The notes under the pieces are model-generated. The model ran no database searches, was not told the origin of the DNA, and worked only from the letters and a program-made list of their open reading frames with translations. From positions 1-32,408 of IMG/VR virus record IMGVR_UViG_3300046028_003616: a DNA stretch of 32,408 nucleotides; one strand, given 5' to 3'. A program made the translations under genes and the position numbers. This document shows positions 21,713 through 26,091 of this stretch, piece after piece; positions within the stretch are counted from its first letter, which is position 1; every line of letters starts with the position of its first letter. This stretch comes from a virus.

Positions 21713-21898
21713 ATGCACATAGATAAAGAGCTTAGTCTTTACGTTGATGAAACAAATACATCAACTGTTTTTACTGGTTATGTTGACCTTTTTGTAATTA
21801 AAAAAACTATTGGAGAAAAATTATCAAATATTAATTTATCACTTGCTGAAGCAATTCAACTCCGTGATTTTTTGAATTATTGTTATCCCAAACCATGA
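21713..21898 (+). CDS. Hypothetical protein (61 aa)
   Basis: ATG at 21713 follows the HTH stop by one base; the GGGGAAG just upstream can serve as ribosome site. The product reads MHIDKELSLYVDETNTSTVF, then hydrophobic beta-like segments and a helix SLAEAIQLRDFLNYC. It is a small mixed alpha/beta protein of unknown family. The DNA is clearly AT-richer than its neighbours. Its stop overlaps the primase start by ATGA, so it belongs to the replication operon. Confidence 0.68.
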   Translation: MHIDKELSLYVDETNTSTVFTGYVDLFVIKKTIGEKLSNINLSLAEAIQLRDFLNYCYPKP

Positions 21899-23898
21899 GT
21901 CACACTATGACCACAACAAAGTTAGAGGCAGCGCTTACCTATGCGTCGTGGGGATGGCCTGTGTTCCCGTTGGTGGCGCTACGAAAGAACCCAGCGACTG
22001 AAAACGGGTTTTATAACGCCACGACTGACACAAATCAAATTAAGGCCTGGTGGGCGCAGAATCCCGAGTACAACATTGGTATCCCGACTGGCGAAGTGTC
22101 CGGCATTGTGGTGTTTGACATTGACCCGCGCAATGGTGGTGACGACAGTTGGTCTACATTTCAGCGTGAGTTAGGAAATGTGCCAGACGAATCAATTTGT
22201 CAGTTGACCGCAGGTGGTGGGCAGCATTATGTCGCCAAGTGGTACGACGGTTTAAAAAGCTGCAAGCCTCGCCCTGGCATTGATTTCCTATCTACCGGCA
22301 ATTATTTTGTCGCATCCCCTTCGTTTGTGATACCAACAAAAGAAGGCACGATTGAAAGCGCGCGCACTTATGAGTGGGAGGCATCAGGGGATCCGCTAGA
22401 CGGTGCAATGCCCTTTTCAATACCCGAGCCGTGGCGTGTAGCCTTGGCGGTTAAAAAGGTCATTTCAAACGCTAGTGATTCGCCCTTGATATGCGGTAGT
22501 CGTAACGTAGGTCTGACCGCTATGGGTGGTTTGATGCGTCACGGTGGGTTTTCAGGCGCTGAGATATATGCCGCATTATCAAAGGCAAATGAGGATCGTT
22601 GCGAGATAGCATTGCCCGATTCAGAGATTCGGCAAATTGCCCAAAGTGTCGCCCGTTATACACCTGACCACGATGTAGGTGCCTCGGCAGCGCTTGGGGA
22701 TGCCGCAGCCGAATCAATACTAAGCGATCAACCCAAGCACCCATTAGCCGTGTTCGTTGATTATGACATGGGCAATATCCCTGCACAAGAATATGTGTTG
22801 GACGGATTGATTCAGTCCGGCGTGGTGTTGATTGCAGGATCGGCAGGAGCAGGTAAAACCACCCAGTTGGTGCCAATTGCTACTCGTGTCGCACATTTAT
22901 GCGAACCTGACGATGCACTCAAACCTTTATTGCGTCGCAAGATCATATGGGTATCGGAAGATCCCCGCCAAGTTATGCGTATTTTGCGCTCAATGAAAGA
23001 ATCAGGGCATTTAGGTGGCAAGTCTGATGCGGAAGTTTCAGAATGGTTTAAGATTGTATCAGCCGCGCGCCTAGCCCCTCAAATAGTCGCCCAAGTCGCA
23101 CCTATCTACGAAGCAATGGCAGTTAACAACATGAGCGAAGACGGAGTAGTGTACGAAACTAATCCGCTAGTTGTGTTTGATACCACCAATGCTAGTTTTG
23201 ACCTTGAAAATGAGAGCGATAACTCAGAGGTCGGACGTGCGATGGCCACGCTCAAGGTTCGATTTCATAGTATGCCATTGTGGCTAGTGGCGCACCTTGC
23301 CAAAGCGCTCAAACGTGCTGATGTAGCAGATTTTAGCGCCCGTGGCGCTGGTGCTTGGGAGGCTGATGCTAACCAAGTGCTATATATCATTAAAGAGGAT
23401 GATGGCAAACGGTGGCTTGAAATTGAATCAGCCAAGCATAGATTTATGGCGCGCGCTGACGGGATTCTGTTTGGTGCGGCATATAACACCATTAACACCC
23501 ACGATATGCTTGGCAACCCTGTACGCGAGAAATTAATCCACGGTATCCCTGAGATTGTCGAGGCTGGTGGCAAGAGTGAGATAGCAAAGGTTAAAGAAAA
23601 GAACCGAAAGGATGCCGATTTAGTCGCGCGACAATTGCTTATGAAGCAAAAAGAAGAAGTGGTGATCTCAGCTCTTACTTTGCTTGGTAAAACTGAATAT
23701 CACACTAAGTCTGAATTGGCCGAGCGGATCGGTGGCTCAAAAAACACTGCACTTGAAGTGATTGATTCTATGGTGGCGCGTGGTTTGATTAATGCTATTT
23801 ATACACCATTTCAAGCGCCTATTGAGAAGCGCCCAGGGCGTCATGATTCGGGTTATGTAATGCCGAAAAAGTACAAAAAAGAGTCAAATGGTGATTGA
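21895..23898 (+). CDS. Primase-polymerase / AAA ATPase replication protein (667 aa)
   Basis: Start at ATG 21895, fused to the previous stop (ATGA); an upstream TTG at 21880 is less likely. The N-terminal primase-polymerase domain shows GWPVFPL (20-26), VVFDIDPRNGG with D75 and D77 as metal ligands, and the GGGQHYVAK motif with H111. A primase C-terminal helical region follows (about 185-265). The second half is a RepA/AAA_25-type ATPase with GSAGAGKTT (315-323) and Walker B LVVFDT (425-430). A winged helix near the end (about 610-650, TKSELAERIGGSKNTALEVI) may bind origin DNA. The protein probably starts replication; the repeat-rich gap next to its stop is a likely target. Confidence 0.9.
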   Translation: MSHTMTTTKLEAALTYASWGWPVFPLVALRKNPATENGFYNATTDTNQIKAWWAQNPEYNIGIPTGEVSGIVVFDIDPRNGGDDSWSTFQRELGNVPDESICQLTAGGGQHYVAKWYDGLKSCKPRPGIDFLSTGNYFVASPSFVIPTKEGTIESARTYEWEASGDPLDGAMPFSIPEPWRVALAVKKVISNASDSPLICGSRNVGLTAMGGLMRHGGFSGAEIYAALSKANEDRCEIALPDSEIRQIAQSVARYTPDHDVGASAALGDAAAESILSDQPKHPLAVFVDYDMGNIPAQEYVLDGLIQSGVVLIAGSAGAGKTTQLVPIATRVAHLCEPDDALKPLLRRKIIWVSEDPRQVMRILRSMKESGHLGGKSDAEVSEWFKIVSAARLAPQIVAQVAPIYEAMAVNNMSEDGVVYETNPLVVFDTTNASFDLENESDNSEVGRAMATLKVRFHSMPLWLVAHLAKALKRADVADFSARGAGAWEADANQVLYIIKEDDGKRWLEIESAKHRFMARADGILFGAAYNTINTHDMLGNPVREKLIHGIPEIVEAGGKSEIAKVKEKNRKDADLVARQLLMKQKEEVVISALTLLGKTEYHTKSELAERIGGSKNTALEVIDSMVARGLINAIYTPFQAPIEKRPGRHDSGYVMPKKYKKESNGD

Positions 23899-23905
23899 TT
23901 GTGCG

Positions 23906-23958
23906 AATACCGCTAATTGTTCAATTTGCTCAAAAAGTGAGCAAAAATTAGCGGTATT
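23906..23958. repeat. Nested palindrome of iterons
   Basis: Outer arms AATACCGCTAAT (23906-23917) and ATTAGCGGTATT (23947-23958) are perfectly complementary over 12 bases. Inside, TTTGCTCA (23925-23932) and TGAGCAAA (23938-23945) form a second perfect 8-bp stem around AAAAG. The whole can fold as a long hairpin or cruciform and may also end convergent transcripts. Confidence 0.75.
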
Positions 23959-23991
23959 GCGGTATCGGTATTCCTAAAGGATACAGTGCCT

Positions 23992-24021
23992 GTACCGCTA
24001 ACCCGAGGGGGTTAGCAGTAC
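23992..24021. repeat. 13-base-arm hairpin with iteron in the stem
   Basis: GTACCGCTAACCC (23992-24004), loop GAGG, GGGTTAGCAGTAC (24009-24021): 12 of 13 pairs match, the only mismatch being C23996 with A24017. The stem contains the GTACCGCT copy of the iteron. Confidence 0.75.
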
Positions 24022-24036
24022 GTATACAGATTTATC

Positions 24037-24074
24037 AAATACTGCTAAATACTGTTGATACCGCTAATACCGCT
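24037..24074 (+). repeat. Four tandem iterons
   Basis: Contiguous units AAATACTGCT (24037-24046), AAATACTGTT (24047-24056), GATACCGCT (24057-24065) and AATACCGCT (24066-24074). Spacing of 9-10 bases puts them on one face of the helix. They resemble binding sites for a replication initiator. Confidence 0.7.
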
Positions 24075-24567
24075 AATCTAGAGTTTTAGGCTCATTAGGG
24101 GTGATATCTGTCACGTTGTCGATCAATCTAGCCTCAGCTTGCTCCAGTGCCTGAGTGATGCTGATTTGTGTGTGCGTTACGCTCACATCGATCTTGTCGC
24201 CCCATTGTTTGGGACGAAGCTTTGACGCTGACCACTTACGAGCATCAATGCGTAACCTTTGACGGTTCACCCAGGCGTTGATTAATGCGGGATCCAGATC
24301 GGCTGGTGGCATCTCATCGGCTAGGTCTACTAGCTCATCTGCTAGGTAGTCCCCTCGCTCTTCAATAGCCCTGTGGTAATCCGATTTAATCGTCTCGCTG
24401 TTGCGAATCTGATACTTGGCGGTAGCGTACGGAATCCCCAAGCTTTTAACGGCACTTACTAAGCTTTGCCCGCTAGATATCTTTTCAAGTATTTTTGGCC
24501 ATATTTCCCGTTCGGTATAAGCGGGATTGAAAAGGCCTTTACGTTTTCTTTCAATTACTTGGCTCAT
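24073..24567 (-). CDS. Terminase small subunit, Sf6 gp1-like (164 aa)
   Basis: Start at ATG 24567 (MSQVIERKRKGLFNPAYTER); AGGG lies about ten bases before. Motifs of Sf6-type small terminases are present: an N-terminal HTH (IWPKILEKISSGQSLVSAVK, then GIPYATAKYQ), a central oligomerisation helix with RAIEERGDYLADELVDLADE, and the hallmark RQRLRIDARKWSASKLRPKQ followed by WGDK. The protein selects the packaging site on DNA and activates the large subunit. Unusually, it is on the strand opposite to the large subunit gene and 1.6 kb away, separated by other genes and a terminator. The stop TAG is formed inside the last iteron of the neighbouring gap. Confidence 0.88.
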   Translation of the reverse strand: MSQVIERKRKGLFNPAYTEREIWPKILEKISSGQSLVSAVKSLGIPYATAKYQIRNSETIKSDYHRAIEERGDYLADELVDLADEMPPADLDPALINAWVNRQRLRIDARKWSASKLRPKQWGDKIDVSVTHTQISITQALEQAEARLIDNVTDITPNEPKTLD

Positions 24568-24633
24568 AGGATTGCCCTGATACACGTTAGCGCATTTTAG
24601 GGGTAATTGGGGGTAAGTGTATAGGGGCATAAA

Positions 24634-25873: not shown

Positions 25874-25918
25874 CTAAATATTTCGATTGTGCATCGCACC
25901 ATGCCCGAGCTGTGAATT

Positions 25919-26075
25919 GTTGCAGCGCAGCATGTCATGTTGCATTGCAATATGTTGCATTGCAGTATGTTGCAGCGCAGCACGATGCCGCATTGCAGCA
26001 TAGAATCGTGTTGCAGTGCAGCTACCGCACCGCACCATGCTATGCCGCAGTGCAGCAATTGTTGCAGCGCAACAG
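25919..26075. repeat. Array of about nine degenerate 15-bp dyad repeats before terL
   Basis: Consensus GYYGCANYGCARYAT. Three units are exactly contiguous: GTTGCATTGCAATAT (25939-25953), GTTGCATTGCAGTAT (25954-25968) and GTTGCAGCGCAGCAC (25969-25983). Others lie at 25919, 25987, 26010, 26024 (weak), 26044 and 26061. Each is itself a dyad (TTGCnnnGCAA). AATTGTTGCAGCGCA occurs exactly at both ends (25915-25929 and 26057-26071). The array lies about 100 bases before the large terminase gene, where packaging sites or regulatory arrays can be found. The long frames crossing it are by-products of the 15-base period. Confidence 0.75.
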
Positions 26076-26078
26076 CCA

Positions 26079-26091
26079 GGGGGGGGGGGGG
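26079..26091 (+). repeat. Run of 13 G
   Basis: An unbroken G13 tract directly after the 15-bp array. It is the only long homopolymer of this kind noticed in the window. It may be a slippage-prone regulatory spacer, a G-quadruplex seed, or an assembly artefact in length. Confidence 0.85.

Follow-up and report, generated by a model that had tools for sequence, protein, structure and literature searches.

Most phage origins are unmapped, and the question raised by this locus is whether a short gap filled with repeats, directly behind the replication gene of a virus, is the site at which replication of its genome begins. The virus record IMGVR_UViG_3300046028_003616 (32.4 kb) was analysed over its whole stretch of 32,408 nucleotides, referred to here as the window. 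Its gene set is that of a P22-like podovirus: portal, terminase, head closure, coat C-terminus, tail, DNA ejection, holin and endolysin genes were found, alongside a minus-strand block encoding recombination and accessory proteins (a helicase, a Cas4-type exonuclease, SSB and a Sak4-like protein). Downstream of this block lies the plus-strand replication gene (21880-23898), which converges with the minus-strand small terminase gene, terS, on the gap at 23899-24072; gene order is much the same in the complete relative MW202867. The comparisons set out below indicate that the gap is very probably the replication origin of this P22-like phage, and that the C-terminal winged helix of its PrimPol-helicase protein would bind the adjacent TACCGCTAA iterons. 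The features concerned are the following.

21880-23898, plus strand: replication protein gene, 672 aa (Prim-Pol, PriCT_1, RepA/DnaB-type hexameric helicase domain, C-terminal winged helix)
23665-23859, plus strand: winged-helix domain, residues about 596-660, with recognition helix at residues 621-633
23899-24077, no strand assigned: candidate replication origin, iteron array and two hairpins (179 bp, overlapping the terS stop codon)
23906-23958, no strand assigned: hairpin 1, nested palindrome around an AT-rich stretch
23907-23917, plus strand: iteron ATACCGCTAAT
23947-23957, minus strand: iteron ATACCGCTAAT, inverted
23955-23971, minus strand: two degenerate overlapping iterons, ATACCGCAATA and ATACCGATACC, 3 mismatches each
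23968-23984, no strand assigned: imperfect palindrome GTATTCCTAAAGGATAC around CCTAAAGG, corresponding to the palindrome that related clades have around CTWWAG
23992-24021, no strand assigned: hairpin 2, with iterons in its arms and a GC-rich base near the loop
23992-24002, plus strand: iteron GTACCGCTAAC, left arm of hairpin 2
24011-24021, minus strand: iteron GTACTGCTAAC, right arm of hairpin 2
24039-24077, plus strand: four tandem iterons (24039, 24049, 24058, 24067), the terS stop lying inside the last
24073-24630, minus strand: terS, small terminase subunit, Sf6-type (PF20901, E 1.3e-22)

Some ten TACCGCTAA-type repeats, lying in either orientation, fill the 179-bp gap. A count that allows up to 3 mismatches to the 11-mer ATACCGCTAAT gives ten copies, at 23907, 23992, 24039, 24049, 24058 and 24067 on the plus strand and at 23947, 23955, 23961 and 24011 on the minus strand. 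The initial annotation of this DNA had listed about nine copies of ATACYGYT; that strict string occurs only six times in the gap (five on the plus strand, one on the minus), and the copy number comes near to nine once degenerate or G-initial copies are included (TACYGYT gives eight). Its further observations that four copies stand in tandem at 9-10-bp spacing (the steps are 10, 9 and 9 bp) and that the last copy supplies the terS stop codon (24067-24077 holds CTA at 24073-24075, a minus-strand TAG) were both borne out. Within the window, exact TACYGCTAA is confined to the gap, where it is found seven times, and for exact 8-mers and 9-mers the gap ranks first among all 179-bp stretches; its most frequent 9-mer occurs 5 times, against a maximum of 2 in 2000 dinucleotide shuffles (0/2000 reach 5). 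As in an iteron origin, clustered repeats beyond chance therefore lie beside the initiator gene.

The palindromes that had been described within the gap are likewise real. The nested palindrome has outer arms at 23906-23917/23947-23958 and inner arms TTTGCTCA/TGAGCAAA at 23925-23932/23938-23945, and the stretch between the outer arms (23918-23946) is 69% AT; the 13-base-arm hairpin pairs 23992-24004 with 24009-24021, with one mismatch. Folded as single-stranded DNA, the gap is very stable (z -8.4), a figure not counted as independent evidence since inverted iterons force such folding. GC skew was rejected as an origin marker: it follows the coding strand, its cumulative minimum (21302) falling where that strand switches, so that it is uninformative on the origin. 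The gap of the window contains no DnaA box.

A second stretch of repeats is found in the window at 25890-26080, in the intergenic region upstream of terL, where many GTTGCAGCGCAGCA/TTGCATTGCA copies precede a tract of at least 12 G. This repeat differs from the primase iteron, and the stretch might be a packaging or regulatory site. Related repeats sit at the same place in three relatives (L014, L016 and L018), and inverted GTTGGACAACTAG-type repeats occur upstream of terL at L014 8074-8151 and L018 8102-8182, these not being seen in the copy in the window.

The position of the array is conserved. Among viral contigs 25 close relatives were found, and TACCGC-type repeats are present in the same gap in all 22 that are readable past the primase stop. 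A wider search reached loci down to about 34% identity, and these were scored without bias by how often the most frequent 7-mer occurs within 250 bp: in 62 of the 69 testable relatives the strongest repeat cluster of the locus is the 250 bp directly behind the replication gene, the exceptions being six ties or losses (L013, L014, L016, L042, L067 and L090) and one locus, L059, that has no array. The repeat itself differs by clade (TACCGCTAA, TACYACA, ACCCCCT, CGTAGCA, CGTCACA, TGGGACA and GGGGACA), such that at least six unrelated repeat sequences are found among the arrays. In L059 (3766-4434) the winged helix is of the CGTCACA type and a gene seems to begin right after the primase stop; this locus is either an exception or an assembly or recombination product. 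In some TGGGACA relatives a DnaA-box-like TGTGGATAA adjoins the array; TGTGGATAA/TTATCCACA sequences of this kind were seen by the arrays of L068, L076, L095 and L039 (just after the array), and also of L040. At the contig end of L024 (5181-5486) a piece of the primase gene is repeated and inverted, which is probably an assembly chimera. A genome scan for the host gave only four distant matches, mostly actinobacterial, and no plasmid in the plasmid collection carries the whole PrimPol-helicase-winged-helix protein.

The replication protein has Pfam matches to Prim-Pol (PF09250, E 3.5e-29), PriCT_1 (PF08708) and AAA_25 (PF13481), whilst a solved-structure search by sequence returned nothing relevant. 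In its predicted model, helicase residues about 293-558 align to RSF1010 RepA (Z 18.3, 2.5-2.6 A over 197-199 residues) and a little less well to DnaB-type helicases in the same predicted-model comparison; a RecA-fold RepA/DnaB hexameric helicase domain of the RSF1010 type is thus present, the hexamer itself being predicted. The AF2 model of the whole protein is of moderate quality (mean pLDDT 68), and within it the winged helix, which takes up roughly the final 70 residues, is made up of helices at residues 610-617 and 621-633 and strands at 638-641 and 657-660 (pLDDT about 73-86). Folded by itself the domain gave a poor model (pLDDT 60), which was left out of the fold search, and its Pfam matches are weak and sub-threshold (MarR, E 5.8e-4; HTH_24).

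Which part of this protein pairs with the repeats was addressed with partial Mantel tests on 44 non-redundant loci, in which iteron similarity was compared with the identity of each domain, for the winged helix once PrimPol and helicase identity had been removed. The winged helix gave a partial r of 0.56 (0/999 permutations), PrimPol 0.26 (0/999) and the helicase 0.07 (81/999). In the subset of 19 loci where terS is the neighbouring gene, the values were 0.515 for the winged helix (0/999), 0.36 for the helicase (2/999) and -0.1 for PrimPol. Natural chimeras weigh more than these figures, because the permutation test does not model phylogeny. One exchange is seen between L061 and L065, whose proteins share 99% identity over PrimPol and helicase but 48% over the winged helix, and whose repeats (CGTAGCA versus CGTCACA) have an iteron similarity of 0; at the DNA level, identity is 77-95% across PrimPol and helicase, 45-73% across winged helix and repeats, and 92-97% in the next gene. 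Similarly, L019 and L021 share 96-97% identity in PrimPol and helicase and 90% in TerS, with a winged helix of 55% identity and different iterons. The converse is seen in L004 and L019, where PrimPol is 62% identical, the winged helix 92%, and the iterons are the same. In L021 and L054, PrimPol is 93% identical, and helicase, winged helix and iterons all differ.

Within the TACCGCTAA group, the start of the recognition helix differs in class B: at window residues 620 and 623 (columns 621 and 624 of the alignment) all ten phages of this class have N and Q, compared with S/T or D/K in the rest of the group. Their TACYGY is preceded by G in nearly every copy, and that of the others by A. This covariation is suggestive of the winged helix as the reader, and only that, since the ten phages are related. 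Taken at the level of sequence, co-variation and co-exchange show the winged helix to be the specificity partner of the iterons, so that the repeats, as in an iteron origin, would be specific to the DNA-binding domain of the initiator. The proposal that the winged helix at the primase end recognises the repeats has in this way gained domain-resolved support.

A further element is shared between clades with different iterons: a palindrome centred on CTTTAG, CTATAG or CTTAAG lies between inverted iterons and is kept in several of them. Ten hairpins were chosen for their clean even-loop form, and in the nine distinct palindromes the stem changes are compensatory, with 72 of 81 cells Watson-Crick compared with 46.8 expected on arm exchange (0/20000). 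No clean even-loop hairpin was found in L077, L078, L085, L089, L090 or L091. Despite their different iterons, L061 and L065 have both retained the spacer TGTGGCAA.GGCGAGAA and the CTTTAG centre.

Taken together, the conserved placement and the pairing with the winged helix argue for the initiator-bound origin that had been suggested, most likely one serving a one-gene replicase and resembling the P4-alpha and PICI replicons. Initiation may then proceed as follows. The C-terminal winged helix would bind the TACCGCTAA iterons next to its own gene, and binding on both strands would gather protomers of the RepA-type helicase ring. The adjoining AT-rich DNA would melt, and the palindromes may open or extrude as a cruciform or single-stranded hairpin. 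The helicase would be loaded and the PrimPol domain would make the first primers, possibly at or near the CTWWAG palindrome. Host replication proteins, including the polymerase, would then take over, as the genes scanned included no replicative polymerase of the phage's own.

Other roles for the repeats have to be weighed against this origin. Packaging sites of phages are often located within or close to terS, and terS overlaps the last iteron here, so the array could be a pac/cos site recognised by the small terminase, whose gene terminates within it; this is nonetheless very unlikely, as TerS identity does not predict the iteron sequence. TerS was rejected as the iteron reader on a partial r of 0.005 (457/999) across the 19 loci that have its gene as their neighbour. 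The L010-L012 phages pair a TerS of 53-55% identity with class-B iterons, L019 has class-C iterons although its TerS is 90-92% identical to those of class-A phages, and in MW202867 the iterons follow the primase though other genes come next. The convergent position of the two genes and the hairpins would also suit an operator or a bidirectional transcription terminator, a reading to which we give hardly any credence: no terminator-like site and a single chance-level promoter match were found in the gap, the array stays at the 3' end of the primase gene even when the next gene runs the opposite way, and terminators need no clade-specific repeats that track a winged helix.

The repeats could, in principle, serve copy control rather than initiation, as an accessory element like P4 crr or the inc iterons of plasmids that is bound by the same winged helix, with the true start elsewhere. 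P4 has a second alpha-binding region, iterons often play both roles, and the winged-helix pairing fits such an element equally well. We consider it improbable, given that no second cluster of the same iteron was found in the window or in five longer relatives, only single stray copies, and that the array is accompanied by palindromes and AT-rich DNA.

The candidate origin can be set beside several known systems. In the PICIs, the origin lies just 3' of the initiator gene, with two sets of iterons around an AT-rich region, and the Pri-Rep-ori layout (SaPI/EcCI) drives plasmid replication (PMC6092414). The window has the same arrangement, its primase/rep gene being followed directly by iterons and an AT-rich stretch, but it belongs to a phage carrying genes for its own virion (portal, head closure, coat, tail and lysis genes) and not to a satellite; it differs also in its PrimPol and RepA-type helicase and, in several clades, in the additional CTWWAG palindrome. 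The alpha protein of P4 is described as uniting primase, helicase and a C-terminal winged helix that binds the origin repeats (PMC4234260, citing Yeo 2002). Its primase is of the TOPRIM type, whereas that of the window is Prim-Pol (PF09250), so the latter protein is functionally alike without being a member of the P4-alpha family. P4 alpha also has an SF3 helicase, in contrast to the RecA-fold RepA-type helicase of the window, whose array stands beside the gene.

At oriV of RSF1010, according to the summary in the same paper, iterons and hairpins are recognised (PMC4234260). The window shares with RSF1010 the RepA helicase fold and the combination of iterons and hairpins, but a single protein takes the place of RepA, RepB' and RepC, and kinship of the primase families is putative. 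ORF904 of pRN1 is a PrimPol-helicase-winged-helix protein with a required origin directly downstream that forms a large stem-loop, for which no iterons were found and no specific binding was seen (PMC4234260). Its helicase is SF3, which sets the RecA-fold protein of the window apart from it, and iterons are the main feature only in the window. In the Vibrio cholerae PLE, the RepA_N DNA-binding domain and the origin co-vary and swap as a unit, and cognate pairing has been proved experimentally (PMC8263062); it is on this precedent that the exchanges described above can be read as specificity. P22, L and lambda carry their iterons inside the initiator gene (PMC8022706). The PLE and lambdoid O-type initiators are unrelated to that of the window and resemble it in each having its own iterons. 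No description of this origin family was found in the literature searched, which lay largely outside the subscription journals.

The layout extends beyond the PrimPol relatives. By Pfam, a TOPRIM primase is fused to the same helicase-winged-helix half in Idiomarinaceae phage 1N2-2, Salicola phage CGphi29 and Alteromonas phage PB15, and the primase of XX1924 is annotated as TOPRIM; in all four the array is directly behind the gene, as it is in Roseobacter phage CRP-821 and Rhizobium phage 16-3. The E. coli phage HK578 has GCGGGACA seven times, about 100 bp past the gene, and E. coli phage KMB41 has GGTTACA five times in the same layout; the helicase-matching gene of the latter (L117, 1185-2840) carries the annotation of a cobalt-zinc-cadmium resistance protein, which is evidently wrong. 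The trait is broad yet not universal, since no array follows the primase or helicase gene in L100-L104, L106, L112, L113, L115 or L119-L121. In one of these, Thiohalocapsa phage LS06-2018-MD04 (L106), about 13 copies of AACCTTC were seen in 250 bp near recombination genes, about 3.3 kb upstream of the primase end. It is quite possible, if still short of probable, that these phages represent a widespread and unrecognised class of replicon, in which a one-gene primase-helicase-winged-helix replicase has its origin directly behind the gene, the winged helix and iterons form a specificity cassette that is exchanged as a whole, and the replicase uses a conserved CTWWAG cruciform to open DNA or to start primers whatever the type of primase.

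With the array as the probable origin, such sites can be read from sequence across many phages, and many unmapped phage origins become predictable, because the repeats change together with the C-terminal end of the replication protein. The natural domain exchanges indicate which part of the protein reads the origin, a layout described as special to PICIs is extended to phages with their own virions, and candidate recognition sequences are supplied of the kind missing in the pRN1 model. Alteromonas phage PB15 and E. coli phage HK578 offer laboratory systems in which the specificity and evolution of initiator-origin pairs may be tested directly.
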